Assembly: GCA_963082975.1 (NCBI GenBank)
Contig: OY720344.1
Span: 91,890,538-91,954,537 of the forward strand
Reading direction: 5' to 3'
Source of the DNA: Labia minor
Lineage: Eukaryota > Arthropoda > Insecta > Dermaptera > Spongiphoridae
Length of the DNA stretch: 64,000 bases
Shown here in pieces: positions 1 to 64,000 of the stretch; the stretch's first letter is position 1, and each line of letters opens with the position of its first letter. Below the pieces are notes generated by a model, which saw only the letters and a program-made list of their open reading frames with translations, made no database searches and was not told the origin of the DNA. Both the position numbers and the translations under genes were made by a program.

Positions 1-937
1 CATGTGAAATTTGGTGTGAAAAAAATTTAATAAGTTAAATGTTTCTTATCGTACCTTTCGAAATAAGAATTATTGCCAATTTTGTATCAATTAATTATTT
101 TAATGATAAAAATCGTTCCATAAAAATGTTTCGAACATTAATTTTATGAATAGACATTACAGAGCACACTTTTCCATTTTTTAAACAATTAACATAATTA
201 TATATTTTTTATACCAACAAAAATTTTCTTGTTCATTTCAAATATGAATCATATACACAAAGAAAATATTGTTTTAAAATATTTAAAAAAAAAATTTAAA
301 ATTGATTTTGTAGTAGATTCAAGGAAAATCTTATAATCAATAATTGATTATTTATTTTTTTTTTCAAGAGAAAATCATTTAATTTAATCTTGATTATCAC
401 TATAGTCGAAGATTATTATAATGATCAAGTCAATTAAAATTGATGATTAGGGAGGAGATTTGATTAAGTGGCGGATTAAGGTTATAGGCACTTTGTTTGT
501 GAGCCCTTTTAATATTATATATGCAATTATTTTTGTTGTTACCTAAACGAAAACAATAGATAGTTTCTTTTTATATCTTAATTAGATATTTTATAATTTT
601 ATAGCTACAATTTTTTACTAGTATTTGTATTTAAAATTAAACTTTAAACTCATTCGTTTCAAAATAAAGTATTAATTACTCATTTCTTGAGTGAATATAT
701 ACAAAATTAGAAAATATTTTTAAATAAAAATTGAATATTAACAAAAAAAAAACATTAATATTTTTGCATTTTGGACCCCTTCTATACCTGGGTAAAACGC
801 CATTGATGTGGTTACTACAAACAATAATAATTTTCACGATAAATAAGATCTCTCTAAAATAAATAATTAGATGAGACAAGCAACAAACACACTCATTAAC
901 ATTTCTATCCTGATAAAAGATAGTTAGTCTGATTATA
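1..937. other. Gene-free left edge
   Basis: AT-rich sequence with no recognisable gene. Bases 1-26 match the part of family B repeats just inside their TCGGTCGGTAAAA end (ATGTGAAATTTGGTGTGAAA), so the window cuts into an old copy. The rest shows only A/T runs. Confidence 0.5.
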
Positions 938-1282
938 CAGTGGCGTAACGTGATCTATTATGTTTAGGGGGGCAGGGGGGGGGGGGTCCGGGGGTCTCCC
1001 CCGAAAAAAATTTTGACAAAATAAATTATTTATTTATTCATAACGTTTAGACAATACTTATACGTAATTTAATGTTTTTTTTACTTTTGGGTTCTCAGTT
1101 ACAAAACTAATCACTTTTAAATTTATTTTTTGCACAATGTTTGGGGGGGGGGGGTGCATGTGCCCCCTCCCCGTGCCCCTCCTCCCCGGCCCGACGCCAT
1201 TGCATATATATATATATATATATATATATACAAACACACACACACACATTAACATTTCTATCCTGATAAAAGTTAGTCAGCT
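889..1282. repeat. Direct repeat of about 40 bases flanking the MITE
   Basis: The stretch from ATTAACATTTCTATCCTGAT through GTTAGTC occurs at about 895-929 and again at about 1247-1279, just outside the MITE and the (TA)n tract. This is far longer than any hAT target duplication, so it points to a local segmental duplication or a slippage event around the insertion. Confidence 0.7.
938..1202. mobile_element. hAT-like MITE with CA(G/A)TGGCGT ends
   Basis: Starts CAGTGGCGTAACG and ends CGACGCCATTG, short imperfect inverted ends of the CAGTGGCG type common in hAT elements. The interior has long G and C runs and no coding. The flanking 8-mers (TGATTATA, CATATATA) are only loosely alike, and a (TA)n tract has grown at the right edge. 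A second, partial copy lies at 16382. Confidence 0.6.
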
Positions 1283-1539
1283 TTTATTTGATTGTATTTA
1301 ATAAAAAAAATAAATATTTTTAATGCATATTAATTTATTTATTTATTGATTAATTGGTGACATTAGTTGTTGATATTTTTTTTAATATTTTCACTTTATC
1401 TTTAAATATTTTATTATTATATTATTTTATTTATTTTTCTCGTTAAAAAATATTTGAATATTATATTTTCGTGTAAAAATGTTTATAAAAATTAATTATA
1501 AGAACGTGTGTTTCATGGAAAATAAAAACGGGGACCATT

Positions 1540-1800
1540 TTTGTTCTAACTCTATATATATATAAGAATCGATGTGCGACTGGTCGATTATTTCTTTAAC
1601 TCGAAAACGTCTAGCGTATGGAATGCCCTATTAAAATTGGGGGATGATTAATGAAACAAGCCTGGGGTAATTCAACGAACCGCCACCAAATTCCCGCTCC
1701 ACGATGACGTCACCGATTACGTCAAACTCTTCGAGCTGAAGTGTTCGTTCCCCCCGTGGCCTGGCAGTCAGTCACATGGCTTGACATAACACTATCGGTT
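1540..1800 (+). promoter_or_regulatory. Probable promoter island of the SLC17 gene with a perfect CRE
   Basis: A GC-richer, non-repetitive stretch in an otherwise AT-rich flank, 280-540 bases before the likely ATG. It contains a perfect cAMP-response palindrome TGACGTCA at 1705-1712 and a second half-site TACGTCA about 10 bases on. A TATATATATA run lies at about 1552-1562. Promoter function is inferred from position and composition. Confidence 0.4.
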
Positions 1801-2083
1801 TTTCATTTGCAATCCCATGCGGCTAAATATTATATTTATTTTCCTATTATTTTAATTTTCAAATATGCTGAATCATGTCCTCCATCGGTTATATAATTCA
1901 TTTATAAATAAATTTTACCTAACATTAGATTCGTGTATATTACCCGATTTTTCTATATTTTAATTGAATTTAATTAATTTAAAAAATTCTCCCAAGTCAA
2001 GATAAAACCTAATTAATATGACCTTCATTGAAAGCAACATATTCTTTTGTGAGCATACAATTTAATCTTTCTCATTTGTCAAC

Positions 2084-5000
2084 ATGCCTCCTAATCCAGA
2101 TTCAGGTAAATACTTATTTATTTAATTTATTGATAAGATAGATACTTGTTGACTTATTTGCATCGTTTAATTCAATTCTTTTCTCTATTTTTTTTGTTGT
2201 CTCCTCTTCATTTGTGAATTCATTTCATTTCATTTGGATCATTATGTTACGGCGGATAGCACCATGTCTTCCTGCACGATTTGTTTTTGGAATTCTCGGC
2301 ATCTTTGGCCTTATTCTTCAATATACAATGAAGGTATGCTCTTTGAATAATTGAAATTGAAAATAGTGCAATATTATAATGTTATGTATAAATGTGTGTG
2401 TGTTTGTATTTGTCTCAGGTGAATTTATCTGTGGCCATTATTGCTATGGTCAAAACAAATGATAGCCAAGAAAATAACAGCACAACACGATATACAAATT
2501 TAACCGATGTCTGCCCAGTGAGAGATACTTCTAGACATGTCTCAAAATACGAGGTAAACTTACAATAATAAGAATTTCATACACCACATCCATTTTTTCA
2601 TCATCCTAGATATATTTACCCTCTTGTGTTTTTTTTATCCTACACATATAAGTATATATATAAAATAATAATAATAATAATAATAAATTATCTTTTTAAT
2701 CTTATATTTTTTTTAATTAATCTATAAAATAGAAAAAAATGTACCAAGAAATCACATAAATAATTATCTTTGATTGGTAGATTTATATATTTTAATTAAT
2801 ACTTTAATTACATATAATTCATTCAAATTGTACTTATTACTTTGCGGTTTTTATAGTACATAATAGAAAAATATATTAAAATTAGGAATAATATTTAATT
2901 CGACAAGTTTGATATAAGATTTAAGATTTTCGAACTTCTCTTTCTATTCATTTATAAATTATTGAATATAATATAAAGTTACCTGTTTTATGAGATGAAT
3001 AAATAATTCATTTATTCATATACATTATATACATTAAAAATTATATAATAAATAGTAGAAATAATAAAATTTTTAATTTTAATATTATATATAATTTATT
3101 GTTATAAATGAATATAAAATTAAATTAATATATATAAATATGTATAAATTTATATTATATTAATATTAATATATATTATAAATATACATACCAATCTTAT
3201 ATATAATTAATATTAATATTAAAATCTTTTATTTACTAAAAATTGATATTCAATTCCAATTTATTTGTTTAATAATTTTATTTAAAATTTTAATAATACA
3301 ATATTTAAATTAAATAATTTAAAACTTGCTTATTTTCTACTATTATTTATTCACACAGTAATAATATTCATAATAAATTAAATGTATAAGTAATAAGGAA
3401 AGAAAATAAATAAATAAAAAACTATTTCGAAATATAATCTCGATTTCAATCTAGTTTAAAAAATTTTTTCTCTGAATAATTTTATAATGTTTATTTTATT
3501 TTATAATATTTATTTGAAATAAATTTTAAAATTTTATTTTATTTTTTATAATAATTAAAACAATATCTTTAATTTAAATAAATGTAATAAATTCTGATTT
3601 ATTTTGATATGTGTGACTTTATAAATATGTACATAAAACCAAACAAGGCGTATAATTATGTGCTTTGGAGTGTAGAAAATATAAATATATAATTTATCAT
3701 TAGTGCTAATTTAAAAACAATTTTGTAATAGTAAAAAAAAGATTTATAATAATTTCTTTTTAAAATATGAATCATTTAAATTGAAAATTATGATCTATAC
3801 TTAACATTTTATTTACTTTACCTATATATTTTTACTGAAATTATATATATTTTTATCAATTTAATATTATTTAGTATAAATCAATATTTTATTGATTTTT
3901 ACATTGAGAAATGGAATTATTATAGTTATAGTAATTATAATAATTTTTCTATATAAATATTTAGTATATAAAAATTATTATTAAAAATATTTATTTAAAT
4001 TCATGGGAGACTATATTTATAAGTTTAATCCTTTCCAAAATTAAATCCAAAAAAACATATATGATGTTTACAAATATATATATATAAGAATGTATTTAAT
4101 TTAATTAATACCGTATTCTATTTTAGGGAGAATTCTATTGGGATAATTTGACGAAAGGACATGTTCTCTCATTTTATTATTATGGTTTTGTTTGCACACA
4201 ATTATTTGGCGGCTATATGTCCAACCGTTTCGGTGGAAGGTTGGTTTTAGGATTGGGGGTATTACTTACTGGCATCTTCACTGTTTTAAGTCCCGAAGCA
4301 GCAAGAATACATGAATATTTATTTATGGTGTGCCGATTTCTAGAAGGAGCTGCATCTGGAGTCATCATTCCTTCTATGAATGCATTATACGCCAATTGGT
4401 TCCCACCTCAAGAACGAAATCGTTTTACTGGAATAATATTTGCTTGTATGATATACGCGAAAATTCTATAAATGATCAAAATAATCTTATTAAATAAAAT
4501 TTATTTTTTTTAGCTACCCATCTTGGAACAGTAATTGGAATGGCTCTCTCAGGATATTTGGCTGATGTTGGTGGTTGGCCGCTTGTTTTTTACTTCTTTG
4601 GCGGATTATCTATTATTTGGTTTTTTCCATGGATTATGCTTGTATACGATTCACCGGAATTGCATCCAAGAATTTCGGAGAAAGAAAAACTATATATTTT
4701 AAGTAGTTTAGGTCGAGAAAATCGAACTAAAAAAATGGTACATTTTATTTATTAATATATTATTTTTAATGATTATAATTGAAAGAAAAATTTTAAAAAT
4801 AATAACTCTTTAATAATGGGATGTTTGCAATGAAATAGAAGGATTGCACATTCCCCCCCTCCCCCTTTATTTTAACTTTAATTAACCAATTAATATATAT
4901 CTAAAAGTTATAAAATAATATTTTATATAATTTTAATTTGAATATAACATTTTTCATGAATATCATTGTTTAATAAAAATTGAACTGTCCTAATCATTAA

Positions 5001-6690
5001 CTCTATTAATTAAAAAAAAATTTTGAAATTATTTTATTTTCATGATTAATCAAAAGACTTTATATAAGAAATATATAAAAATAATAAGTTTATGTCTTTT
5101 GATTTAATTGATATAAAATTGACATTCAATCTAAAACATTTAGTTGTTCATTTTATTTTAAAATCAATTACCTATTTTTAGATAAAAGCACCTGTGCCTT
5201 GGGGGAGTATTGTGACTTCAAAACCTGTGTGGGCGGCTGTCTTTGAACAATTTGGATATACCTGGTTATTATTCACCTTACTTAGTGAATTGCCAACTTA
5301 CATGAGTACTGTTTTGCATTTCGATATTACTGATGCAAGTATTATATAAAAAACAATCATTTTTAAAAAAATAATATCTAATATATTCCTTTATTTTAAA
5401 TAGAGTGGTCTCTTATCAGCACTTCCATACCTTTTTGAATATTTTTCAAGCATTTTTAGTGGAATGTTAAGTCAGTGGTTAACTAAACATGGATATTTAA
5501 CTAAATTAACAACTTATCGTGTTTTTGATGGAATTGGTAAGAATTAAAATATTTATACATTATATAGTTATTGAATAGAGTTTTACAATTATATTTTTAT
5601 TTTCTTTTGATTATGAAAATATTTTTTTTTAATTGAATGAATCATTTAATTGTTAATTAAATTTTATACATTTTCTTTGCAAAATCTAACAAATTATTGA
5701 TAATTTTTGTTTTTTATAAAATGGAATATTATTTTTAGCTGCAATTGGACCTTCAATTTGTTTTATTATCATTTCCTTCAGTGGTTGTGAATATAATACC
5801 ATTCTTGCCCTTTTAATCATCACGACTACTTGTTGCGGATGTTTCATGGGTGGAAGTTACCTTAATCACCTGGATTTGGCTGTTAACTTTGCTGGCTCGA
5901 TAGCTGGAATTTTACATACAATTGGGGCCATACCAGGATTTCTCACGCCAATTATTGTTAGTGCGATAACAAAAGACGTAAGTTATTTTAATAAATATTT
6001 TATATTTCATTCATTTCATTAAGCTTTATAGAAATATATTATAATTAAATAATATTTGAAAAATTATATATATATATATATATATATATTGTTAAATACT
6101 CTTCGTCTACTCTAATCCCAAATCAACTTCCGAATTGATTGATTAGAATAATAACTATTTCTTTGCATAAAATTCAAACCAACTACCTATTATTTAACGC
6201 TACCAAAGACATTCTCCTAAAAATTTATATTAACTTTGAAATTTCATCCTACCTATTTCTTTTCATTTAAATTAAATTTACATTTACGCATTTACCTAAA
6301 AACGTATTAATAAATGCAGATACATGTGTTATTTTATATATTTTTTTTTTTTGAGAAAATCAATAAATACAAATACATATACTAGTATTCCTTTAATCAA
6401 ATTACTTTTTCCAATGTAATATAATTTCTTTTCTTTTTAGAAAATATAATTTTCTCATATCTCTCCCGATACACATGAATAATCATCTCCAGTGTAATCA
6501 ATATCTAATTTTGCTAATGTTTTTGTTTTAGGATACTCTTTCACAATGGAACATTGTATTCTATCTTTCTATGGTGTGCACTATGATTCCATATATATTC
6601 TATTTAATATTTGGCTCTGTTGAAGAGCAACCATGGAATAAAATAGAGGAACGTGAGGATAATACAATAATTAAAACAGACCAAATTTAG
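2084..6690 (+). CDS. SLC17/sialin-type anion transporter, 9 exons
   Basis: Major facilitator of the SLC17 family (sialin, vesicular glutamate and Na/phosphate transporters), expected in the plasma or vesicle membrane. Exons: 2084-2105, 2260-2333, 2419-2553, 4127-4445, 4514-4737, 5182-5334, 5404-5536, 5739-5977, 6532-6690; about 485 aa, normal for the family. Seen: TM1 running into NLSVAIIAMV, a glycosylatable first loop (NNST, NLT), the TM2-TM4 block with GGYMSNRFGG and RFLEGAASGVIIPSMNALYA, then THLGTVIGMALSGYLAD, PVPWGSI, ELPTYMSTVLHFDI, GLLSALPYL, YLNHLDLA and IPGFLTPII, all family landmarks in order. Phases agree at every junction. Intron 6 uses a GC donor (GCAAGT). The start is uncertain: exon 1 (MPPNPDS) joins in frame to 2260 through a pyrimidine-poor acceptor, while an in-frame ATG at 2244 would give 483 aa without it. 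The substrate cannot be read from sequence. Confidence 0.9.
2554..4126 (+). other. Intron 3 of the SLC17 gene
   Basis: Almost pure A/T sequence of 1.57 kb with (TAA)n and (TA)n tracts. No open frame, transposon end or RNA is recognised in it. Confidence 0.6.
5335..5403 (+). other. GC-AG intron in the SLC17 gene
   Basis: The only in-frame join between the exons coding LHFDITD and SGLLSALPYL has donor GAT-GCAAGT and acceptor ATAG. GCAAGT is the strong consensus of the minor GC-AG class. The nearest GT, two bases on, would put the next exon out of frame. Confidence 0.75.
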
Positions 6691-8509
6691 ATTAATTTTT
6701 AGAGGCAGTGTCTTCTCTCTTGCCATAGTTATTATGACTTCCATCTTATTTTAATAATCAATGCAAAATTAGAATCAATCACCAATCAATTACAGTTAGG
6801 GTTTTTTAATACAATCACATATATAGACAATATTTATTTAAAAAATGATTGATTTGAATTCTGTATTTTCATCTTTTTTAAAGCATTATTTTTTTTTTGT
6901 ATATTTATTGCACGGTTATTTCAGTTCACTCATAAAATCTTTTATATTCAATTAAAAACCTATAATTTATATAAAAAAATCATAAATGATTATTTAAAAA
7001 TAGCAATCACATATACATGATTCTATTCAAGTATATATATTTTAATATATATCAAACCAAAACATTCCCATTTATTAAACGAAAATATTTTTATATTTAT
7101 TTCTATGAATTCATGTTACGCTTATTTTCTTAAAAGTATTAAAATAATAATAAAATATAGGTGTAATATTTTAAGATGATAAAAGGTACTTAAATATTGA
7201 AAAAAAAGTTTTTATGATATGTTGATACCTATATAATACCTGTATAATAAAGAGTAATAGTATGGAAAATAAATATGTTAATGTAATATATAAAAGATTT
7301 TGCCCTACTTTAATGAAGATTTTTTATCTTGATAATTCTACAATATTCATAAAAACCATTGAATTTTTTTTTTCAACTGTTAAAAACATATTTAATAAAT
7401 AAATTTTTAGATGAAATTTGAAAGTTAAAAAAAATTAAAAATATTATATTTCTTAAGTGAACAAAATGGAGAATGTACCTTAATTATTAAATTGCTTTAG
7501 ATAGCAATAAATACTATACTATATACTATATTATGTATCTATATAAATATTTTTATTTAAAATAATATTCATTCCTAAAATCACGACTTCCTATTCTTTC
7601 ACTTGCACCTATTATTTATTCTATTATACTACTGGCGTAATTAATTATATAATATAATCATTATATCAGTATAATTTAACTTAATTCTCTATCAAATAAT
7701 CATAATATAGATATAGATTCTTTTATCTATTTACTCTTATCCAACTAGGTTTATGTTTTATTACAGTACTTGTTCTTTATAATCCCAGTCCCTCTGAGTT
7801 AAAACACCTTACTTTTCATTATCATTGAATCTTACTCAATCCTATTTTGAAGCAATTTGTTTTGATTATTTTAATTAGAATTCCAATGAATATTTTAATA
7901 TTATAACGTTTTTTTCAACTTCACTTCATGTCTGCCAGTCTGTCTGTTAGCTCAAATGAAATAGCGATTTTTTATCAATATTAATTTAAGCTAGTGTTAT
8001 GTAAACTTTTGTAGATTTAAATGGGCCCCTAGAAGGTATGGAAGAAATAAAATTAAATTATAATTAATTAATTAATGTAATTAGCAAATAAAGATCGGTG
8101 TTTTATCACTAGAGCTAGCAAATAGGTGGTTATATTATTATTATTATTAAAAAAATAATATTTACATTTGAGAATTTCTAATAAGTGATTAAATATTTTT
8201 TTAACCCCTATTAACATTACAACGTTTTTTACACGATTAAAAAGTTATTTATTTATTTTTCAATATTTTGAAGAGATTTAATAATAAACAGAATAAAATA
8301 AAATAACTATCATTATTTTTAAATTTCATTTATCAAGTGTGTGAAGGAGAATCAACCCTTCCCTTACATTTATAAAGGAAATTTTAACAAATTTTTTTAA
8401 AATAAATTTCTCAAGTCGGAAAATTACAAATTTGAGACTTATAAACTCTAATTACAAAATCTATTACTTTTATTCTTAAATACTTTTTTTAAGATTTTTT
8501 ATTCTTTTG
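6691..8509. other. Intergenic AT-rich stretch after the SLC17 gene
   Basis: Presumed 3' UTR and spacer. The only recognisable content is a copy of repeat E (about 7900-8090). No gene is seen. Confidence 0.5.
7900..8090 (+). repeat. Interspersed repeat E, copy 1
   Basis: Starts near CGTTTTTTTCAACTTCACTTCATGTCTGCCAGTC, includes GCCCCTAGAAGGTAT-GAAGAAAT and ends in TTAATTAATTAATGTAATTAGC. A diverged copy in the same orientation lies at about 33105-33315. The GTCTGTCC-like motif resembles the core of families B and G. Class unknown. Confidence 0.6.
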
Positions 8510-9060
8510 AAATTTTCGCTAAATGGTTCATAGTCAAAGTATGAATAAGTTATTTTTTTCAAATTTCTGAATACAAGAAATATTTACGGTATGTTATGGA
8601 ATTATATATCATAATATTTATTTTTGCAAAACAAATCTTATTTATACTTTGAAATTTGAAAAAAAATATTTTATTCGTACTTTGACTAAGAACAATTTAA
8701 AAAGATATATAAAAATAATTAATATTTATTTATATTTAATAAAAAGTTTAATTAATTGATATGCATATGTATATTTCCATAACATAGCCTAAATATTTCT
8801 GTTTGTCAAAAAAATCTGTTCTGTTGCAAAAAAAATCGTATTCATATTATGACTAAAAACAATATTTTGTAGAAATTTCAAAAGAAGTATAAAAATAATT
8901 ATTATATATTTTTATTTAATCAAAAGATTAAAAAATTGATACCTATTTCAATAACATAGCATAATTTTTTTTTATTCAGAAATTGCAAAAAAAATATCTT
9001 ATTCATATTTTTACTAAAATCGATATTGCGGAAATTTTAAATGATATTTAAAATAAATTA
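8510..9060. repeat. Short tandem array, unit about 165 bases, with an inverted end copy
   Basis: TTATTCnTA-TTTGACTAA-AACAAT recurs at about 8671, 8839 and 9000, each time followed by TATAAAAATAATTA and a CATAACATAG block. The first part (8514-8600) carries the same block in reverse complement (AGTCAAAGTATGAATAAG, then GGTATGTTATGG). The whole is about three direct units with one inverted unit on the left. No coding; class unknown. Confidence 0.6.
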
Positions 9061-9079
9061 ATAACTATTTCTATCTATC

Positions 9080-9700
9080 TATCTCTGTGGTTATGCGGAA
9101 CTTGAAAGTTCTTGGCTGCAGCAACTACATCAACTCCACATCCAACTCCTGCCCTCTCCTAACGCCTTTCCCCGGAGTCCTCATCTTTCTTTGGCCCATA
9201 AATGCTGCCCAGAATCCTATTCTAAAATACTCTACATCTACTCTCGTCCCCCCAGGGTCATCGACCGTGCCTCACACCCATATAATACAACCGGCAAAAT
9301 GATTGTTTTATATATTTTAATTTTGATCCTCTTTGATAATAATTTTGACCCCTTTACTGCATGATAACAGGCAGGGCCGTTCCTAAGGTATATGCCGCCC
9401 GAGTGCGAGAATAATTTTACCGCCCCTTCCCCCAAAGTTGTTAAAAATTTACAAATAAAAAAGATAAAGTTTTTTAAAAAATTGAAAAAAATCGATAATA
9501 TTTAAGATCCTGATCGCAAAATCATTTGACCTTTTTTTAGAACCATAATGAAAAAAATTAAAAAAACAAAATGAATAAGAATTTTAAGGCGACTCGCGCC
9601 GCCCCTAGGCTTACCGCCCGGGTGACACGCACCCCCTGCCTCCCCGGGTCGGAACGGCCCTGATAACAGGCGTTACCCAATTGCGACCTCGATTCAAATT
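9080..9700 (-). mobile_element. LINE fragment (reverse transcriptase C-terminus), split by a hAT MITE
   Basis: The minus strand reads CYHAVKGSKLLSKRIKIKIYKTIILPVVLYGCEARSMTL in three short blocks, then RVF-NRILGSIYGPKKDED. These are hallmark motifs after the reverse-transcriptase domain of non-LTR retrotransposons (KIKIYKTIILPVVLYGCE; FENRILRRIFGP). The fragment has stops and lacks the catalytic part. A hAT MITE (9372-9662) sits within it, so the LINE piece is older. It opens near a (CTAT)n tract at 9067. Confidence 0.8.
9372..9662. mobile_element. hAT MITE with perfect 8-bp target duplication
   Basis: Ends CAGGGCCGTTCC and GGAACGGCCCTG are perfect 12-base inverted repeats. ATAACAGG is duplicated exactly on both sides (9364-9371 and 9663-9670). 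CAGGGCCG ends and 8-bp duplications define hAT elements. At 291 bases and non-coding it is non-autonomous. It belongs to the same family as the copy at 56566, in the opposite orientation. It was inserted into the LINE fragment around it. Confidence 0.92.
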
Positions 9701-10069
9701 CTTCATCTATTTATATATCTAATTAATAGCTAATATTTTATACCAGAATCGTTCTATTAAAACAATTTTTATATAAATAAAATAAATTAGTATATGTCGA
9801 AATTCTTTTTTATTTTGTATAATGGATTTTAATATCATTTCTCAAAAAAGTGAAATCCTGGTAATAATTAAACCAACCGCATCTGATTTCTTAAATAATA
9901 ATAATAAATAATTTAAAAGTGTTAATTTAATAATAATTATAAATATATCGTCGATATAATATATAGATCTTATAAAATTAATCCTTTTATAATTATCAAT
10001 TAACTGAGAATTGAACAAAATTAATTTTTCTCTTTAATTTAATCTCATCGCTCATTTAATTTTTTTATC
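9700..10069. other. AT-rich spacer before ACOT9
   Basis: No gene, repeat end or motif recognised. Confidence 0.4.
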
Positions 10070-21800: not shown

Positions 21801-24800
21801 ATTTTCAAAGTTTTAAATTAAAACGTTTAATCATTTGGTTGGTTACTTACCCACATCCATGAATGGAGCACCAGTGAGTAAAAGATGTTCGATGTTGTGA
21901 GGAATACTTCGCCAGCGAGGCAATTTTAACGCTTCGATGGTTGTATTTAGCACATAGAGATATACATCTACATTATTATTGACTAACAGTTTAGCCATTG
22001 CATCAGCTGGAGCACGATATAAGAAATCAGAAAGCATCTAAAATAAAAGAAATATTTTTAAATGAATAATATACAATTGAAAAAAGAATATTGAAGTTTT
22101 TTATTTTACATTTTGATAATAGAGAAAATTTAAAAAGACTTTTATTAAACAATTGAAATTACACTAAAAAAATTAGCTGGGATAGGCACAGAACCCACCG
22201 ACGATTTGAAATAATTTATTTTCCAAACAACATTATATTAAAGTAGCACAAAAATATTTTTAAAACTTGAATTAAAATGACTAAATTATATTATCTTGGT
22301 TTTTATTTTGAGTTTAATTACTCAATTATTAATTACTACTATATTTTAAGTGAAATATTTTCCGACAATGAATATAAAATTAATACTTTGTAAACTGCCA
22401 CTTCGGGCTTTTGGATATACATCAAAAGTTGAAGAATTCATTCTACTGTCGCATTAAGTAAATAAACCAAATTTTATCAAAATCTGTTGAGCCGTTCATG
22501 CTGTACACGTCTATACGGACACACATGGACAAACGGACAGACATCATATTAAAAATACTTTTGTCGGTTAAGAAAATACATGATTATTGGAGATATATAA
22601 AAATCTCCACATGTGCAATTTGGTTTGAAAACAACACCTCCCTTACTCTCGTCGGTCGGTAAAAATCGTAAAAATTGTAGAGCAAATCACTTAAATGAAA
22701 ATGAAGTAACAACGATAATTCACCAAAATGGCTATAGGCTTTGGGGAAATAGAACATGTTCAAATGACTCAAAATGGGCTTTTTTATCAGTGAGAAGAAC
22801 TGCAGATTTAATTAACGATAGTTTACTTAGGGCTCATTTATGGGCAGTTGATCGCAATATCACTAAAACTTAGATAGATGATGTGATTGAGGGGGTGAAT
22901 TCTTATTTGGCTAATTTAAAAGCCCAAGGAGCTGCTCAACACTAAAGAACATGAAAAATCTTGAAACCACCCAGAGATCAACGATTATACTTAAAGATAA
23001 AAGACAAAGTTAAAATAGGCCAACTCTATAAAAAATTGAATATAGAAAACATCAACATTCATATCAAAAGATTGAAATGGAGATAGGCGGGACAAGAATG
23101 GATGACAATCTTTGGACAAAGATAGCTTCTGAATGATCCCCTTTAGAAAAAATAAGAAATGGGGAGAAATTCAAAAAAGATAGACATGTTAAAAATACTT
23201 TTTTCTATTAACAAAATACATGAATAGTGAAGATATGTAAAAATCTCCACATGTGAAATTTAATGTGAAACCTTCCCTTCCTATCGTCGGTCGGTAAAAA
23301 ACAGAAAATAATTTTTATTATTAAATTTATTAACCAATTCAATTTTCAAGTCAATAGGGTAAAAGACATATAAATAAAAAAATACAAGAGAAGTTAAATA
23401 AAAGTCAATAAAAATAATAATTGTATCTTATTATACTCACTTCTATATATCTTTCTCGTATCATAGTCACATTATGTGGATCAGGCCAGTGGGTATACAT
23501 GTATTTAATTGCCTCATATGCTCCATTAGGATTCAATGTATAATTATAACGTAAAACAAATTCACGAATTTTTTGAGAGAAAAATTTTTCATCCACTTCA
23601 TAATGCGGTGCCAGTGAGTCATTATTATCTAAATTAATTAATTAATAAAAAAAAAATTGTTAAAACTTGAATAGTTTAAATAAATAATTAGAAATGGTTA
23701 TTTACAAATCAAATTAGCTGCTTCCTGAGTTGTAACTCCACTCATATATTGGAGGCCGGAGTTATATGCCTCCCGGGCAATAAGTTCTGCAGGAGTCTCT
23801 TTTAAAAATTCCCAATCACTTCGTACCCATCCAGGGTAGAGAGTATCCTCTGGCAAAGTAATATTATGATCTAAAACAGGGGCCCAGGGGAATGATCCAA
23901 TTTGAGGCTAAAAAAAATATTGGTATTTGTGTTAATATTTATAATTAAAAATACAAATACTATACATTTAAATATATATAAATAATTATAATATTTACCG
24001 AAAATTCTCCATTGCCTAATTCATGAGCGCTCCTACCATTTTTAAGACATGTGACTATTTTCCAAGATGATTCTATATTGCACCCAAGACGTATTCCAAA
24101 AACACGAGAAGTATTTACTGCACGGTACCTATCAACTGTCAAAGCCCAATCGGCCACCGCAGAGCCACTCTAAAAAGAAGATTTGGAAAATTGAATTTGG
24201 ATTTTTGGGAATAGAATTGTTTATATTTAAATTTATGTAATAAAAAAAAAGAATTACCTGAGCGATGACACGATGGACAAGATTTCGAGTCCGAGGCCAA
24301 ACCATAAGGATACCAGCACTAGCCGCCCCCGCATCAGGTCCAAAAAGCGTCACACTATTTGGATCCCCGTTAAAATATTCTATATTATCATGCACCCAAC
24401 GTAATGCCATTGCCTGGTCAAGCAATCCATAATTGCCAGGTGATTCTAAATCACCAGTAGATAAAAATCCTTAAAAAAATAAAGCCATTAATAAAATTAT
24501 GAAATACAAATAAAATAAAGATTTGAATAATAATAATAATAAAAATTGAAACTTTTATTTTTTTTATAAATATATATTTAGAAATTTAATTGATTAATAA
24601 TTTTTTCATAGATTCATGTTAAGAATAAAAATAAATTGTAAAGTTTCTATAAATATTGTATAATAATAAATTTAAAAATCTAGAGTGTCTCCACTCGACT
24701 ATCTCGCAAATTTTAATTGGATGAATTAACATATATTATATTTAAATTAAATTTTAAATTAAAATTAATAAATAATATTTATTAAACCAGCTTGTGTTTG

Positions 24801-34419: not shown

Positions 34420-35545
34420 GGAAATTAATTTACTTCAAACCGTCGGACGGTTAATACAATTTAATATTATTTTTTATTAATATCATATCAAAAAAAGAGA
34501 ATTTATTAAAAATTAAAAATAAAAAAAGAAGCCTATTAATAAAAAAATATTTATAATAGAATACAATAAATTTGATTTAAAACAAATTTTAAAAAAATAC
34601 TCAAAATTTAAAACATTTCTTTTATATCATTTGTCTAAAAAATCATATTTTAATTTTTATATAACCAAGAAATCATTTTTGCACTTATAATATAGTTGTA
34701 ATTAATAATTGATTCAAAAACGAAGATAATATAATTTAGCCATTTTAGTTGAAGTTTTGAAAATATTTTTGTATTCATAAAACATTAAAAATAATAATTT
34801 CTGTTTTTTTATAAAATATATACCCTTCACTTTTAAATAGAAAAGAAGAAATATTCAAATATAGAAAGAATAAATACTAAATAATTTAAGTTAAATATGA
34901 TCTAAATATTTTATTAAGATATTTAAATATAAGAATTTAAAAAAAAATATATTAATTCTTTGTTTGGGAATTGTTATTTAATTATGTGCGACATGATTCG
35001 ACTTAAACAGACCATCATTATTTTTTATTAATATCACATAATAAAAAAGAATCTTTTAAACATAATAAATAAAAAAACATCTTGATAAATTATAATAGAA
35101 TATAATCATCTGGATTTAAAACAAATTTAAAAAATATACCCAATTTAAAAATGTCAAAAATTTAAAACAACTTTATATCATCATATTTTAATTTTTATAT
35201 AGTATATATATTTAGTAATTAAAAATAGAGTAATTAAATTAAAATAAAAAACAAAGATAATATAATTTTAATGAGGGTTTAAAAATTATTTTTACTTCAT
35301 AAAATACTAAATATTTTATTTTTATTATTCAATTATAAAATTTATATATTATTATATATTATAGAAAAGAATTAATATTCAAATAAATAAAAAATAATTT
35401 AAGATAAAAATATGATCTAAATATTTTATTAAATTAATTAAAATGAGAACTTTTAAAATAAATTATTTCATTGAATTGATATTTGAATATTAGAATTTAA
35501 AATAAAAAGTTAAATATTATAATAATTCTTTGATTGGGAATCGCT
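34420..35545. repeat. Diverged direct duplication, unit about 550 bases
   Basis: The first unit (about 34420-34985) and the second (about 34990-35545) share, in order, ATTATTTTTTATTAATATCA, a TTTGATTTAAAACAAATTT-like block, TCATATTTTAATTTTTATATA, a GAAGATAATATAATTT-like block, TTATTAA-AT, and an end like ATTCTTTGTTTGGGAAT. The GATAATATAATTTA block also occurs in family B copies (38570, 63050), so both units probably derive from old B-related elements. Confidence 0.6.
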
Positions 35546-36436: not shown

Positions 36437-39400
36437 ATGGTGCTTATTACAGAATTATCTTCTGAAACATTTGATATTACAATTTCCCATTTACCTAATA
36501 AAGATGAACACAGTTATGAACTTAACAAACAAAAAATTAATCAATTTCCTTCATATTTAATAAATTTATGTCAACATATTAAGGTTCGGTCATATATTTA
36601 TATTTAGGAAGTTTTATCTATTTTTGTATACAGGTATTATGGGCTATAAAAATTTTAACAATTAATTATTATATTTTTAGCAACTTTATCTTGAAGGTAA
36701 TCAACTTGTTGAATTACCTGATGAATTTTATTGTAAAATGTCGAATTTAGAATATTTGGATTTGAGAAATAATCATTTAAAAGGTTTATCAAAAAAAATA
36801 TGCCTATTGAAAAATTTAGAAATTTTACTTTTGGAATCAAATAAAATTCAACAATTACCATTAGAATTATGTGAGTAAATTTATGTGTTTTTTTAATTTA
36901 AATAGATAATTTGTTTATTCTTATTTTTTGTATTGTTTTAATTTTTACTAGGTTTGCTTGAGAATTTAAAAGGTTTACAATTGGCTAATAATCCATTAAT
37001 ATATCCAGAGAAAAAAATTATACATCAAGGATTAAATGGAATTTTACAGTTTTTAAAACAAGAGAGTTCTTCCGAAATGATGAAAAAAAATTTATCAATT
37101 AATAATACAAACACAAATATAGTCAAAAGTAATCAATGTTTGAATTATATTAATTTACATATAAATAAAACTTTGTTTTGTTATATGAATTACTTTAATT
37201 TGAATTTTTTAGAAGAAAATAATTTATTATGAAAAATAATATCATTTAATTTAAATTAATCAGAAAGTAATATTCATTAGGAATATGGATGCTTAAGAAG
37301 TTTAACCCCCCTCCCCTCCTCCTTCCCCTCCCCATAGACTTCGATCTCAAAAATCTTAAACTGGAAAATCTGAGACAAAAATATTTATTTTATTTATTAA
37401 GTATTTATAATATTTTTTTACCATTTTAAGTCCTCACATCAGACACTTATGTTAACCGCCTTCACTCCGTAGATTATTTGAGATTTTCTTGAAAAAACAT
37501 CAATTTATATTTTTTATGTATTATTTAAAATGTATTCCTATAAATACCATATTATTTAGAAAATTATTTTATATGAAAAACTAAACAAAATTTAAGTTGA
37601 ATTTTTGAGAAATTCTAAGTACTATATGCTCTGGCCAATTATTATTTAAATATTCCATTTTTTAAAATTTGTCAAATTAATTAGAAATCTCATAATAATA
37701 ATAATTATTATTATTTTTCAGATTATAAATTTCAATGGAAGAAGGATAATAAAATTAATCCTTTTGAAAGAAAGAAGAGGAAAACAAAGTAATATAAAAT
37801 CATATTTTAATAGTGAATACTTTTTTCATTTTAAAGTATAATAAAGTATTTAATAAATAAAATTATTTTTTTAAGAATCCCTACATTAAAAGATATAAAG
37901 GATGAAACAATGAGAAACCTTATGTTAAAAAAACTACGTTTTATAATGGATAAACAAGATAAAATTCTCCAAAAAAACAGGTAGTTATTTCAGTTGATTA
38001 GATACATTAATTATAATTCATTATCATATTATCTTTTACTTTTTAAAGTTGGCACCACAGAAATTTTCATAACATTAAAATGATTTTGTAATTAAAAGTA
38101 AGTGGCGCAACCAGGATTTGATCCTGGGGGGGGGTTCGACTAGCCGCTCCACCTTCCTATGCCCCCCCCTCAAAGACAAATTTTAATTAAGATTTTTTTT
38201 TTTAAATTAAATATTTAAAAAAGTTTTGTAAATAAACACTGATTTTACAAAATCTGGCAAAAAAATTTAATTTTGTATAAATCTCCACGAATCATTTTGT
38301 TAACAGAAAAAAATATTTTTAGCATGTCTGTCCGTCCGTACATCTGTCCATTGTGTGTCCAAATAGACATGTATAGCTTGAATGACTCAACTGGTTGTGA
38401 TATAGTTTGAGATATTTACTTGATGCATCAGTAGCATGAATTTTGGTGTATATCCGGAAACCGGAAGTGGTAGTTTACAAAGTATTAATTTTATATTCAT
38501 TGTGGGAAAATATTTCACTAAAAATATAGTAGTAATTAATAATTGAGTAATTAAACTAAATATAAAGACTAAGATAATATAATTTAATCATTTTAATTCA
38601 AGTTTTAAAAATATTTTTTTTTGCCACTTTATATATATATACATATTTAATGTTGTTTGGAAATTAATTTAATTCAAATCGAACATTTCACTTGAAATGG
38701 ATTGGAACATATCTAATTGAAAATTCTTTGATTGAGACATGTTGCTGAAAGAGAAAGGGAGGAAAAAAGTAAAAGATGTATTAATAGAGAATTGAGTTAT
38801 TTTTTCAAAATTATAAATGTCTACATTTTATCATATTGAAGTTAGATTCGTTATTTATATTCTCATTTCTTTTCCTAATTTACATAGAAATAATTTTTAT
38901 TTATTTTTTATTTTAATTAAATAAAATTGATAATAACATTAAAAAGTTATGATATATACTAAAATGTAAAAGGTTGGAGTGCGATAATAGATTCCTTAAT
39001 GGAAATTTTTATACCACCAGCACATAAAAACATTAAGTTTATAGGTAAAAAAATAAATATATTTGTGTTCACATTTTAATATTTTTATTTTTTTTTATTT
39101 TATTTGTGTATTTTTCAAAAGATTTATCGTCTCAATATTACACTAGATAATAAATTGACAACATATATAAGTGATTTATGGTAATTATTTCATAAATTTT
39201 GTAATATAAATAGATCATATAAAAAGTCTCCCAAAGATTTTGTCAACTTTATTAATTTCAAATGATTCCAAACTTTCATGTTGAAGTTTAGTTCCTCCGT
39301 TATTTCTTGATAGATTGCGTGCAATCGAGCAAATCACTCCTGGGTCCTTCGTTCGCTCACATCATTCCCACAGTATACTTAACAAATTCTTCGACATGTC

Positions 39401-41046: not shown

Positions 41047-44000
41047 TCACAATTTAAATTTATGAATTCGATCCAAAATTTGTCGAATTTCTCGATCGTT
41101 GTCGTAAGTATCTTTTAAATAATAAAGTTTATTTTTTCCTTCATGTTGGCATTCTAAAACGCCCCAGCGTTCAAAGAGTTTAAGAGCACCACGTATGGAA
41201 TCACTAGAAAGACTTTCACCTATAAAAAATATAAATATTGATATTAGCTGAATAAAAAAAATCAATTAATCTATTTATTAGTAATTAATTAATACTTGTG
41301 TATTTTTTTAAAATTTATATTAGATAGAATATGTCTTTTAAAGAAAAAATTGTTCTGCTCTTGCCCTTAATAAAATCATTACAATCACATTCTACTATCA
41401 TAAACTTTATTTTGAATAAAAAGCAGAATGAATATATAGATAGTAAAATATTTCAATTAAAGAAAAAATAACTTACCAAATTTGGATATTCCTAGATCGA
41501 ATTGATTTTTGGTTTCAGCTAAAATTTCTTGTAGAAGATCCCTTTCAAATACTTGTCTACCAACAAGGCCACATAAACATAACGCTGTCACAGTATAAGC
41601 ATCAATAAATGGTGACAGACAGGATTGTAAACTGCTTATTTCTTTCATATTTGATGAAGTATATAATGAAGCCTCTACTTTATTAGAAGAAATTTCATCA
41701 TCAGAAGAATCCAAATGTGAAGCAAATTTTTTTGACCAAATTTCATCTTCACTTAAATCCTCCTAAAAATAATGAATTTATTAAATTATTATTTTGACTT
41801 TATTAATTAAATATGAATAGATTTATTTGCCATTCAAATAATATTACTTGTATTTATTATTTTCAAATGATATAGAAAATTTACATAAATAGGTAAGAAA
41901 TTAAAATAAAAAAAATTACACAATTTATTATACAATATAAATCCATTTTGATTGTTTGCTAAGATCTTTCCTAAAAAAAAGTAAATAATTTTGAGGAATA
42001 CTCACACAATCACGAATGATTAATCCTCTGGCCATAAATGAATCCAGTTCATCATATATTGCTTGTTTAATATTTTGACACGGTCGACAGAAAATAAATT
42101 CATATTGTAGTATATCACAAAGATCTAATGCATTTTGGATTAAATCATCTTCATTAAATTCATTATTTCCTGATATTGCTCCTAATGATCCAATTACTGT
42201 GGCAATCTAGAAAATTGTTTAAATATTTTCAAATACCATCCATTTCATTTAATTAAATTAATAAGAATAAAATTTCTTAAAATCATTTATTAAAATATCG
42301 AAATAAATAAAATTATAACATACCACAGCGTCTAAAGAGAGATGGGAGACCATGGTATTAGCATAATAAGCTAGTTCAATGACATTTGGTAAAAGTGTTA
42401 CAGGTGTAATCCGATCGCCGTCACGTCTTACAAGAGCTGGCCCGAGAACTTGGACAGCATGATCAATTACATCAATACTATCTCCACTAAAAAAAATTAA
42501 ATTTAATATTTAATTAACGATCAAATAAATATAATAATATTAAATAAATAAATAAACAATGTTTTTACCTAAATCCTAAATCACAGTCTTTGCATGCTAA
42601 TTCACGTCTTAAAAAGTCCATATCAGAAATAAGTGTTTCACGTGTGGCACCATTTCGATAACGATAAAGTAACATATATGCTAATAAATTCGTTGACATT
42701 ACAGCCATTGAATGTGTACTATCATAGACAATATGTCTTGCTATTCTATCAACAACTTGACGTTGTTCAGTTGAAACATAATCCGAGCCGTAGAGACTAG
42801 TGGATGAAGGAACTTCATGTAATTTATCATAGGATTTATTATTTGTAGTGAATCCATTTTCTTGGATTTGTGATTTCTCCATTAATTCCTAAAATTTATA
42901 ATAAAATTAAAAAAAATATATTTTTTTTATATTATATATTTTATATTTACATTAGTAATTAATAATATTTACTTTTAAAGAAAATGGCGGGTTAAAGTCT
43001 ATTCGAAGCATTCCATAACTGGAGCGAAAGATTTTCCAAATAGCAGCTACTGCTGACGTAAAACTTTCCATTTTTTTGGGCTGACCAAGCTGTTCTCTTA
43101 CAAAATTGCCTTCTACCAAACGATCATAATTAATTGCTACTGGTACAAGGAGAGCATCTTCAATTGTGCCATCGAGATAGGAATCCACAATGACACTAAG
43201 TAAACCAGCCTAAAAAAAAAGAACATTTAAAAATAAAAATATTTTACCATAAATAAACATGTCAAAATTATAAAATGTATGAAAAAAATTGTAATGTTAT
43301 AATGTTAATTTAGAAGATTTAAGAATTTTTTTTTAAATTATTTGATATTTTTAAATTAAGAGAGAATATGACAAATGACTTTCTTATAATGTTGAATCAA
43401 TTTATAGGCACTTTTTAAGTAATTTAATCAGTTTTTATGTATCCTCGTAAATTCCATAATTTTTTTTTATATTAGAGGTTTAATTAAAGTAAGATATAGA
43501 TTTTAATTAAGAGGATAATACCTTTGGCATACAAGGTTTTCCAGTACGAGTACGTCCTCCTTCAATAAAAAATTCAATATTATATCCGGCTTTGAGAGAT
43601 TCTACCATGTAGGTATGTAATACTGCACGATATACAAGATCACGACGACCTTGCACAGGATCAATTCGCCTTTTAATATAAAAAGCGCCCAGTCCACGAA
43701 GAAGCCAGCTATATAAAAAATAATAAAAAAATATAATTAAATTATTATTTATAGATATTTAAATAACATACATATAAACAATTTCAAATTAAAGATTTTG
43801 TATTTTTAAGAAATTGAATGGTCGGTGAACTTACCCAAAAAATGGAATTTTAAGATTATCTCCAGCTGCAACTAATGGAGGTTTAATACGATTCATTACA
43901 AGGATAAATGTAACAACAATATAATCGATGTGGGATCGATGAAGTGGTAAAAAGATTAAAGGAAGTCCAGTTTCAGATGCCCTGCGAAGCATTTCAAATT

Positions 44001-59264: not shown

Positions 59265-59700
59265 GTCAATGTCAAACGCTTCAGGAGTGCGTTTAAGCCG
59301 CGCGTTGTAGCAAAAACGGCCTGAATTCGAAGAACGGCACGACAAAGTGATTTTGCAGCATGACAACGCTCGACCACATGTTGCCGGTGAAAACCTGAAA
59401 TGGGATGTCCTACCACACCCGCCGTATTCTTCAGACATTGCTCCTTCGGACTATTACTTGTTCCGGTCGATGACACATGGTCTGTCCCAGCAGAAGTTTA
59501 CTTCATATGAACAATGCAAAAAATGGGTCGATGATTGGATTCCCTCAAAAGACAAGTCGTTTTTTCGAGCTGGCATCCGAAAATTGCCAGAAAGATGGGA
59601 AAAAGTAGTGGCTAGCGATGGACAATACTTTGATTAATATATTTGTAACCATTATTTGAAAATAAATCAATAAATTTCGAAAAAAACGCTCATTATTAAT
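59265..59700 (+). mobile_element. mariner transposase C-terminal fragment
   Basis: Plus-strand reading gives RPEFEERHDKVILQHDNARP, then HVAGENLKWDVLPHPPYSSD, IAPSDYYLFRSMTHGL, WVDDWI and LPERWEKVVASDGQYFD with the normal stop at 59635-59637. The D of HDNARP and the D of IAPSDYYLF match the second and third acidic residues of the mariner DD34D catalytic triad. The N-terminal half, including the first Asp and the DNA-binding domain, is missing; a stop (TTG TAG CAA) precedes the conserved part. About 60 bases of 3' UTR follow. It is a dead fragment embedded in family A copy 5. Confidence 0.92.
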
Positions 59701-60029
59701 TCAAGTTCCCTATAGATACATCATCAATTTTTGGAATCCAACGCCCTAATGGATTTTTTAAATGATTTCAAATTTAAAACGCCAACATTCAATCAAAATA
59801 ATGTATAATCAAATAAAAATGTAAATAAGCGGGAGTGTCCTCCCCTAGACTTTCCCGCATATAAATAGGTATAAAGAGTTGTGAATGAATATTTAGAATG
59901 TGTAAACTTGGTATTGATAAAGGGCCAGGTCGTATTAGTTTATTGGTGTCAAATTGGATATTTGGTAACATTTTTATATATATATATATATAGAATAAAG
60001 TGCTACTTCCGGTTAACTGATATTTTAAA

Positions 60030-60210
60030 TGTAAAAAAAACAGATATGGATATAATATAAATATTTTTAATTTTATTTTATTTATAATATATAAGGGCTG
60101 GCTGTGACGTCATGAAGTGCTGGGTGACGTCATATAATTTTAAATTAAGAAAAAACTAATGAAGATGATTTTTCTCGAGGATAAAACCAATACAAAGTGC
60201 ATAAAACGTG
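60030..60210 (+). repeat. Interspersed repeat C, copy 2
   Basis: Inverted relative to 34205-34385. Contains two GTGACGTCAT words (60100-60135). Confidence 0.6.
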
Positions 60211-60224
60211 GAGATATGTCCTCA

Positions 60225-60543
60225 CGTGAAATTTGATATGAAAATAACCCTTCACTTCCTCTCTTCGATCGGCAATACTAGCACTTCCGGTTTCCGGATT
60301 TGCACCAAAAGTTGATCAATTCATCCTACTGATGTATTAAGTAAATATACCAAATTTCATCAAAATCCGTTGAGCCGTTCAGGCTGTACACATCTATACG
60401 GACGGACGGACAGACATCATGCTAAAAATACTTTTTTCTGTTAAGAAAATGCATGATTCGTGGAGATATGTACCTAAAAATATCCATAGGTGAAATTTGG
60501 TGTGAAAACAATACCTCCCTTACTATCGTCGGTCGGTAAAAAA
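60225..60543 (-). mobile_element. Family B element, partial, nested in family G
   Basis: GTTTCCGG, CAAAATCCGTTGAGCCGTTC, ACGGACGGACGGACAGACAT, TGATTCGTGGAGATATG and TATCGTCGGTCGGTAAAAAA in the standard order. The opposite end is replaced by repeat C. Confidence 0.7.
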
Positions 60544-61019
60544 GAAACGCTACTTGTATAGGTAAAATGTCACTTCCGGTAGTCAGATCATGATGAAATT
60601 TGGTATCTCAATTTTTTTCATATTTTTAAATCTATATACAAAATAGGAAGCAAATATCTCGAAGCAAACTGGTACTTTACTTGAAAGGTAAACGCAACCA
60701 GTGTAGGTAAAGTACCACTTCCGGTTAACCGATTTTGACGAAATTTTGATAGAAATCTACAAACTGTGAATAATATCGGTGTACCAAATTTCGAAGTCCT
60801 AGCTTGTGATTAGTTTTTGAGTAAATGTGCTTACAGACATTACATACATCCATACATCCATACATCCATACATACACACACAGACATAATTCGAAAAATG
60901 GTATTTTCCGACTCAGGGAGGTCTAAAACGTCAAGATCTATCGAAATCTCGAAGTCGAAATTTTTGACGATTCCAATACTTCCCTTATACGAAGTATGCG
61001 TGAAAGTAAAAATGAAGGC

Positions 61020-61660
61020 TTAAAAATAGATCACATAAATTATTTATTGTCGCAATTGAAGTCCTGGGACAAGCGGAAATAAATTTACAAATAAATGAAT
61101 TCAACGTTTTAATATATTTTCCATTGGATTGCATTTAATTCAATGGTTTAAATCAATTACACATTTTCTCACAATCACTACAATACTTGAATGCGATTCT
61201 ATCATGTACATTAACAATGAAGTACAAAATTATATATACTAGTAAAATATATATCAATTCAATATGGTGATCAATACACCTTCCTGTTGTGGTTTTTCTA
61301 TGAAAATGTTCAATAAAATGTTCCTGAGTTCAATAATTTTAAAAAGGGAGCATCAAAGGGTCAGTGACAGTTAATGCCCCTTTTGCTGGATATTAAGAAG
61401 ACCGAATTAAGAAAAAAAATTAAGTACTCACAACAATTATTTATGATTTTTTTTCCTGGAAAAGATGATAAATTCTCTATTATTGTTTATTATTATTTAT
61501 TTATTTTTAAATTATTATTATTATTATATCATATATTAAAATTTAAAAATAATGATTTTCTTCAGGATTATATTGCACGTTAAGAATTTTGAATTATTTC
61601 AGGTGTCTGACGAGTATTGAAATTTTTCTGAGACAATCAAACTGAAATTAACTAATTAAA
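61020..61660. other. AT-rich spacer
   Basis: No gene recognised. A 69-codon open frame at 61374-61583 is A/T-driven (Lys, Ile, Leu, Tyr) and shows no domain. Confidence 0.4.
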
Positions 61661-61661
61661 T

Positions 61662-62032
61662 CAGTGATTCTTTTTTTTACCGCGGCACACTTTTAACGGT
61701 TTAAAAATTTGGCGGCACACAAAGAAAGAGATAACACTAAACCGAGACATTTAGAGCTATATTGTATGAAAAATCGAAAATAAGAGCCAAACTGATTGTA
61801 AGTCTTGAAGCATCAAAATAAGTTTATGATTCTAATAAAATGTTATTATTATTATTAAATGTTGTTAAAATAATTTGTATTTTAAATTATATTATTAAAT
61901 AATTTAAACAAACTTATAAAATAAATAAGTACTTTTTCTTAATTTGAACTTTATATTTGTAAAATTTGGCGGCACATTTGGAAAATTTCTGGGCGCACGA
62001 AAGTGCCGCGACACAGTGGTTGAGAATCGCTA
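61662..62032. mobile_element. hAT-type MITE with CAGTG(G/A)TTCT ends, degraded
   Basis: Left CAGTGATTCTTTTTTTTACC-GCGGCACAC; right GTGCCGCGACACAGTGGTTG-AGAATCGCTA. GCGGCACAC/GTGCCGCG and the outer ends are inverted, as in the CAGTGGTTCTCAACC-CGCGGCACAC hAT families of many animals. The right end is decayed and no target duplication is seen. About 370 bases, non-coding. Confidence 0.65.
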
Positions 62033-62179
62033 TTCTATATTCTGGAATAATATAAACTTGAAAAGATCATTCCATGCATTGAATTATATATTTTATTTCA
62101 ATAGATTTACCGTATATTTAAATATGTCAAAAAGGGCAAATTTCGTTGGAATAAAAAATAGAATATTATTTTAATTTAT

Positions 62180-62690
62180 TATTGAAAGATAATTTATAGG
62201 CATTCTTTAAGGCGGGACCAATTTCCGATCGTTCCATTTTTTAAAAATTAATTAAAAAAAATATATTCATATTGTTTTATAGCTGATTTCTTTTTTTTTA
62301 AAAAAAAAAGAAAACAAAAGAGTAAAAAAATTTTGGCAAATGAGAAATAAAAAACTGTTAATGTTAATCATATTACCAACTAGAAATTTTACTCCTGACT
62401 GTTTTGATCTTTCCTTTTAATCAATACCTTTTAAAAAAAAATAGTTTTATTAAGCCATTTCCATGTCTCTTTTTAAGATTACAGTTATTATTAAATGTGA
62501 AATTCTGCTATAACAATAATAATAAGAATAAATAAAAAAATGTAACTAATTCGCAATGCGACAATATGTAATTATATTTGAAGGATGAGGATGAGAAGTA
62601 GGATTAATTTACAGTTTATGTTGAATATTTCCTGTATGACAAAACATTTTCATTTAAAGGGATCGGTAATTTGAAATTGAATTAATTGAT
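62180..62690. other. AT-rich spacer
   Basis: Nothing recognised apart from poly-A/T runs. Confidence 0.4.
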
Positions 62691-62693
62691 TTT

Positions 62694-63180
62694 TTTTACT
62701 GACCGACGATAGGAAGAGAAGGTATTGTTTTCATATGTGGAGATTTTTACATTTCTCCACGAATCATGCATTTTGTTAACAGAAAAAAGTATTTTTAGCA
62801 TGATGTCTGTCCGTCTGTCCATTGTGTGTACGTAAGGCGTGTATACCTTGAACGACTCAACGGATTATGATAAAGTTTGGTATATTTACTTAATGCATCA
62901 GTAGCATCAATTCATCAACTTTTGGTGTAGACCCGGAAACCGGAAGTGGTAGTTTACAAAGTATTAATTTTATATTCATTTTCAGAAAATATTTCACTTA
63001 AAATATAGTAGTGATAAATAATTGATTAATTAAACTAAAAATAAAAACTAAGATAATATAATTTAGTCATTTTAAATCAAGTTTTTAATTTTTTTTTTGA
63101 TACTTTATATATATATAATGTTGTTTGGAAATTAATTTATTTAAAATCGTCGGTCGGTTCTGTGCCTGGCCACAGCTCAT
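62694..63180 (+). mobile_element. Family B element (Helentron-like), best preserved copy
   Basis: Left CTGACCGACGATAGG (62699 onward), right ATCGTCGGTCGGT (63146-63158), then the hairpin CTGTG-CCTGGC-CACAG and CTCAT. The inverted repeat ACCGACCGACGAT is imperfect by one base on the left. About 480 bases, non-coding; the core has GTCTGTCCGTCTGTCC and CCCGGAAACCGGAAGTGGTA. Confidence 0.75.
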
Positions 63181-63433
63181 TTTTAAAAATTATATTAGAT
63201 AATATAAATCAAAAAAAAAAATATTTCTAAGAACAAAGTGTGCCAAAAGAATATGGGTCATTAATTATGAATGACCCCGATGAGGTGTCTAATCACATCA
63301 TCTTTGTAATAGGACAACAGATGAAAGATGATTAAAGCAATCCATTAAATTTATGACTAACAACATTATTGTGATTGACATTCAAATAATTTTATAAGTT
63401 TTACTACAAAAATAATCAAAATTTTTAGTTTAA

Positions 63434-63627
63434 CCCTTTGCACTCGTATGTCCCCCTACAGGGGTTGTAAACAGGGATGAAAATTTTGTATTTTGAGTTT
63501 TGAACCATCAAACCTTAAAGTTGAAAAGTAATATGTTCTCATAAAAATAATTTTATCCTAATCGATTATGAAAAAAAATTCCGAGTTGGTAGGTACTCTT
63601 CTCAGAAAAAAATACGAGTGCAAAGGG
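63434..63627. mobile_element. piggyBac-type MITE with TTAA target duplication
   Basis: CCCTTTGCACTCGTAT (63434-63449) and ATACGAGTGCAAAGGG (63612-63627) are perfect 16-base inverted repeats, each flanked by TTAA (63430-63433 and 63628-63631). CCC...GGG ends at TTAA are diagnostic of piggyBac. 194 bases, non-coding. Confidence 0.92.
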
Positions 63628-63631
63628 TTAA

Positions 63632-64000
63632 AAGGCATAATGAGTTTAGAAATCTTTATAAATAAAAAGAATAATATTAATATAAAATGTACCTAATGGT
63701 CTTAAAAAAAGACATATAACGAAATATCAAATTTGAAATGGATGTATGTATTGTACAGCAATTGTTTTAATCAGTGAATTGCAGTTGGTTAACATTTGGT
63801 TGCAATTCATAAAAATAATTTTAAATTTTATAAATTTAATATAGTAGTGTTTGTTCATTTGTCTGTCTGTTTATAAACTTTCACTTAGAATTATTTCTCC
63901 TTAAATTTTATAAGAAAAAAAGAAAGAAAATAATTTTTTCAACAATGGTCTATTTAAAATAATAGGGATTTTTCAAATTATTCTAAAAATGAATTAAAAT
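63632..64000. other. Gene-free right edge
   Basis: AT-rich; a weak TGTCTGTCTGTTTATAAAC-TTTCACTTAG patch (63860-63890) recalls repeat E. No gene seen. Confidence 0.4.

Follow-up and report, generated by a model that had tools for sequence, protein, structure and literature searches.

The locus examined here is a host intron that holds a piece of bacteriophage DNA, within a 64-kb window (by which we mean the whole stretch of DNA that was analysed). The intron begins with a GT at 23440-23439 and ends with an AG at 22039-22038 on the minus strand, and the exons on either side of it join into one open frame. This agrees with the first-pass annotation of the sequence, which had placed a phage-like segment between two host exons. 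The phage piece and the host gene lie on opposite strands, so that the piece is antisense. Coordinates of the features are collected in Table 1.

Table 1. Features of the intron and its surroundings (positions of the window).
Feature	Position	Strand	Basis
Cholinesterase-like exon on the 3' side of the intron (open frame ends at 21846)	21846..22037	-	In-frame join; weak COesterase match
Host intron, 1403 bp, GT-AG, holding the insertion	22038..23440	-	Splice sites and in-frame exon join
Dispersed host repeat, copy A	22168..22665	+	83.8% to 62693-63184 (506 columns), 80.1% to 38272-38681 (423), 83.0% to 60282-60542 (271)
Phage WO tail-sheath (FI) gene fragment	22669..22932	+	blastn, alignments, PHROG 23, codon comparison
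Spacer between phage DNA and repeat B, 252 bp	22933..23184	+	No match in any search
Repeat copy B, truncated, 3' part of the repeat in copy A	23185..23308	+	80.6% to A, 82.9% to 62680-62802, 81.7% to 60418-60543
Exon 5' of the intron (outer, 5' end approximate)	23441..23638	-	In-frame join

Host gene

The exon 3' of the intron matched Pfam COesterase weakly, at an E value of 8.1e-4 that falls short of the Pfam cut-off; the exon on the 5' side matched no Pfam family. Two further exon-like frames on the same strand matched COesterase with E values of 2.7e-30 and 4.9e-31. When one exon was used in a homology search, 129 of 131 candidates passed, and the 120 listed among these include neuroligin- and carboxylesterase-type relatives, one of them from Diabrotica virgifera. 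The host gene belongs to the cholinesterase family, with gliotactin as a putative name and another neuroligin-like cholinesterase relative as the alternative. Ordinary host genes lie near the locus as well. A frame at 4127-4471 (+) matches the Pfam family MFS_1 of MFS transporters (E 8.6e-22), and one at 42565-42888 (-) matches GPAT_C, the C-terminal region of a glycerol-3-phosphate acyltransferase (E 7.6e-9). A further frame, at 59311-59637 (+), could be a piece of a mariner-type transposase; it matched NCBIfam IS630 weakly (E 0.0063, with 16 bits where the cut-off is 100) and had no Pfam match.

Identity and extent of the phage fragment

Aligned without a gap over its 264 bp, the fragment is 95.1% identical in DNA to the record MW788656.1, phage WO of Allonemobius socius (blastn, E 3e-114). 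The tail sheath (FI) gene of that phage (product QXF95216.1) is complete, with 1146 bp and 381 codons, and is located among tail genes. The fragment corresponds to codons 244-330 of it, or 87 whole codons, so that a whole gene in the phage stands against an internal piece in the intron. The sheath-like open frame spans 22601-22873 (+), and its residues from about 24 to 90 read like a portion of a contractile tail sheath, from the C-terminal half. Residues 25-90 are identical to the A. socius phage sheath at 66 of 66 positions in a tblastn search of phage records. That search returned 314 records (E<=1e-5), and Wolbachia phage WO occupies the first 7 of the 20 places listed.

The fragment also matches the profile of the sheath family. 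PHROG 23 (tail sheath) was matched by frame residues 22-90 with an E value of 9.1e-28, and the pyocin sheath (PDB 3j9q) matched the frame with an E value of 1.2e-22. The first-pass annotation had proposed the tail-sheath identity and had named a profile search without a sheath match as a result that would speak against it; the profile and DNA matches bear the identity out. The Pfam sheath models scored below cut-off (PF17482, 21.8 against 26.9 bits; PF04984, 16.2 against 31.4 bits) and an NCBIfam search of the sheath piece gave no match, as may be expected because only a fragment is present. The segment had been delimited as 22679-22943. It is real as a sheath segment, but the phage-homologous DNA runs from 22669 to 22932.

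A start codon is absent, and one in-frame stop, TAG, occurs at 22871-22873. The fragment is therefore not an intact sheath ORF, which would run from a start codon through every domain without a stop in between. With 87 of 381 codons, no start and one stop, a working sheath protein is impossible, in line with the earlier description of the piece as broken and short. Megablast of the window against phage records (in pieces 1-10000, 10001-35000, 35001-60000 and 60001-64000) found no further phage DNA, at a sensitivity that would miss diverged phage DNA and with a collection of phage records that excludes Wolbachia chromosomes.

Relatives and donor

A blastn search with 22540-23320 as the query matched 10 phage records. 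Eight of these are Wolbachia phages, and the remaining two are 69.1% and 67.6% identical. At E<=1e-5 the fragment was matched by 37 of 46 loci, the best being the A. socius phage WO (L001, 95.1%), L034 (94.7%) and L017 (94.0%); among the collections searched, 95.1% is the identity of the nearest donor sequence. Every source-named locus that reaches 83% identity is a Wolbachia or phage WO sequence. The IMG/VR contigs (L017-L042) include several at 84-95% identity to the fragment. A search of a large protein collection kept 47 of 57 candidates, and the top two are 89% and 98% identical, with query coverage of 73% and 67%; the best organism-labelled match there is from Orientia, at 73%.

A tree of 264 columns and 19 rows was built from the window piece and 18 of the 37 matched loci, picked by hand. 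The window piece pairs with the A. socius phage WO at a fork that is not strong (support 90/68), inside a set of five rows (the window piece, L001, L003 and the two IMG/VR contigs L034 and L017) supported at 98/93. Its end branch is 0.054 long, against 0.006 for the A. socius sequence. As 8 of the 15 inner branches are open, the finer placement of the window piece is unsure. Taken together, the match of 95.1% over 264 bp and the 98/93 set establish that the fragment derives from Wolbachia or its phage WO. Naming the donor more closely as phage WO of Wolbachia is supported by the best DNA match and by the tree set, and so is the earlier suggestion of an endosymbiont prophage as the source. We rejected a donor other than Wolbachia, since the source-named loci at or above 83% are all Wolbachia or WO and the best source-named locus outside them, Candidatus Mesenet, reaches just 77.8%.

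The sheath gene seems to be broken in some WO copies inside Wolbachia too. In WOcauB1 (AB161975.2), a transposase gene, gp20, lies between gp19, annotated as sheath-like, and gp21, the gene that the sheath match overlaps. The unverified WO record of wMel_KL (MN180251.1) has its sheath split into two annotated CDS.

Divergence of the fragment

The window piece differs from the A. socius sequence by 13 bases in 12 codons. Ten of the differing codons are synonymous, one carries an amino-acid change at the left junction and one is the stop. Random changes would be synonymous in 24% of cases (a neutral expectation in which transitions were weighted two to one), and 10 or more of 12 has a P of 2.6e-5 under neutral decay. 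Such an excess of synonymous differences argues that most of the divergence arose under selection in a working phage gene, before the transfer. The divergence would thus have accrued mostly in a WO phage outside the collections searched, while the gene was still functional.

Sites private to the window piece number 3 of 264 in a comparison with 15 close copies, consisting of 6 named Wolbachia or WO sequences and 9 IMG/VR contigs taken as WO by similarity. The in-frame stop is found in none of the 18 relatives compared. The synonymous excess and the few private sites suggest that the host copy has decayed only slightly since its transfer. The earlier account of a transfer followed by decay therefore stands as to the broken prophage piece in an intron and has to be toned down as to the decay. 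The flanking repeats differ among themselves by about 19%. With differences that are mainly synonymous and few private changes, the transfer looks young relative to these repeats, and a fossil that predates them was rejected on the same grounds.

Repeats, spacer and junctions

In the assembly as given, the fragment is continuous with host DNA on both sides, through the repeats to the exons that join in frame. Repeat copy A stops 3 bases short of the phage DNA, and copy B begins 252 bases to the right of it. Host repeats had been noted on both sides from the outset; copies A and B account for them, and the window holds more of the family, including smaller pieces at 34679-34772 and 35213-35268. 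The other window copies used in Table 1 (62693-63184, 38272-38681 and 60282-60542) are partly shorter than copy A. The direct repeats 22545-22673 and 23185-23308 were considered as a target-site duplication or LTR pair. This was rejected because the identity between A and B (80.6%) is about that to the other copies (80.1-83.8% for A and 81.7-82.9% for B, over stretches of more than 120 bases).

The family is about 500 bp long and is possibly a small DNA transposon: inverted stretches of 13 bases (ACCGACCGACGAT, with one mismatch) lie near the ends of the copy at 62693-63184, although similarity between copies extends beyond the 5' inverted stretch.

The spacer between the phage DNA and copy B gave no homologue in a protein search and no relative elsewhere in the window by DNA comparison or tblastn. 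Pfam had no match in 22955-23083, and 22960-23320 gave no phage match against phage records at E<=1, on which basis a phage origin of the spacer was rejected. By eye, the impression is of the C-terminal end of a worn non-LTR retrotransposon.

At the left junction, a stretch of 7 bases (TCGGTAA) is common to the 16 host and 16 WO bases just outside the break. It is offset by several bases from the register of the phage DNA, and 220 of 20,000 random pairs equalled it; the match may be a chance one (about 1%). The longest shared stretch at the right junction is 3 bases.

Origin of the insertion

WO prophage DNA from germ-line Wolbachia was very probably joined non-homologously into the intron, where it is now a dead pseudogene fragment. 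A Wolbachia with prophage WO in the germ line of the animal or an ancestor would have supplied the DNA fragment. The most likely route is a chromosome break in the intron, repaired by end joining with symbiont DNA as filler, which the bases shared at the two junctions favour weakly. The inserted piece would then drift as a dead fragment, presumably without function.

Among other explanations, the one that survives best keeps the same donor and lengthens the path. The fragment could be a secondary copy: a longer piece of Wolbachia DNA elsewhere in the nuclear genome would have been its source, and either host repair or a mobile repeat would have carried it to the intron. Transfer of Wolbachia DNA to hosts is called common or widespread in the abstracts of two papers (PMC4046930, PMC3798261), one repeat family lies on both sides of the fragment, and the fragment is very short. 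In the megablast survey, however, the fragment is the sole phage match of the 64-kb window, and nothing there favours such a copy, which we consider a serious though clearly less likely course than direct insertion.

Direct insertion of prophage DNA is also preferable to capture by a retrotransposon, in which a non-LTR element would have switched template to a phage transcript and left a chimera of sheath, element end and repeat in one orientation. All three components, with 22955-23180 as the possible element end, do lie on the plus strand, and their order would suit a template switch at the 5' side. Yet the shared orientation is likely to arise by chance, and the element end was recognized by eye and has no homologue, no Pfam match in the part searched and no relative in the window. 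No target-site duplication was noticed either in the comparisons made. Capture of this kind is improbable. Slightly more doubtful still is a reading in which a WO transcript was reverse-transcribed by a host retroelement and entered the chromosome as part of a chimera, which would make phage RNA and not Wolbachia DNA the transferred material; the shared orientation is compatible with it.

An assembly artefact, with prophage sequence of a resident Wolbachia misjoined into the host contig at repeats, could appeal to the host repeats on both sides, as assemblers err in such places. It would require two false joins 264 bases apart, at junctions where, in the 16 bases outside, the longest run common to host and phage is 7 bases on the left and 3 on the right, and with repeat A ending 3 bases before the phage DNA begins. 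It would also have to supply a stop codon that the compared relatives lack. We regard such an artefact as very unlikely. Least credible of all is co-option by the host, which might, for example, use the fragment to regulate the gene or as an antisense RNA element of it: the intronic position and a frame unchanged in protein ahead of the stop would suit it, but selection in the phage accounts for that conservation, a stop is present and a start absent, and Rfam had no match at gathering scores across the whole window.

Comparison with known insertions

Transfers of WO DNA into insect chromosomes have been published for a grasshopper, tsetse and a woodwasp, so this kind of transfer is already established and the event described here is not exceptional. 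The grasshopper Chorthippus parallelus carries phage WO haplotypes in its nuclear genome, and they are present there in uninfected animals (PMC4675112). There, as here, WO DNA moved from Wolbachia into an insect chromosome, but the grasshopper has Wolbachia DNA of at least 448 kb and 144 kb as well as at least 3 WO haplotypes (by the orf7 marker), in contrast to one piece of 264 bp. The tsetse Glossina morsitans likewise has phage WO sequence in its chromosomes (PMC3998919); its phage regions are found on two main insertions and are kin to the resident phage, whereas ours is a short isolated piece from a donor outside the sampled sequences. In the woodwasp Sirex noctilio, one of the Wolbachia pseudogenes groups with phage tail proteins, and this remnant of a tail gene is attributed to WO (PMC8962096). 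That genome contains 12 Wolbachia pseudogenes, several of them on scaffold 13, unlike the single intronic fragment beside repeats in the present case. A paper on Liriomyza states that, among transferred Wolbachia elements, some contain apparent prophage regions (PMC12092117).

In the searched text of the Formica exsecta paper (PMC6469114), a term search found phage named just in a reference, and the excerpts of PMC5062602 and PMC13320244 do not name a tail-sheath insertion. No mention of the fragment described here was found in the accessible parts of the openly licensed PMC literature. The insertion is thus a probably inert, young-looking case of a known kind of symbiont-to-animal DNA transfer, and it leaves in place the view that insect chromosomes have received WO DNA on more than one occasion.

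The fragment marks a past (or present) infection of the animal's germ line by a WO-bearing Wolbachia, and the lineage need not carry Wolbachia now. As an intronic insertion it provides a presence/absence marker and is thus datable. PCR or read screens for WO tail genes could score positive in such an animal without a live symbiont.
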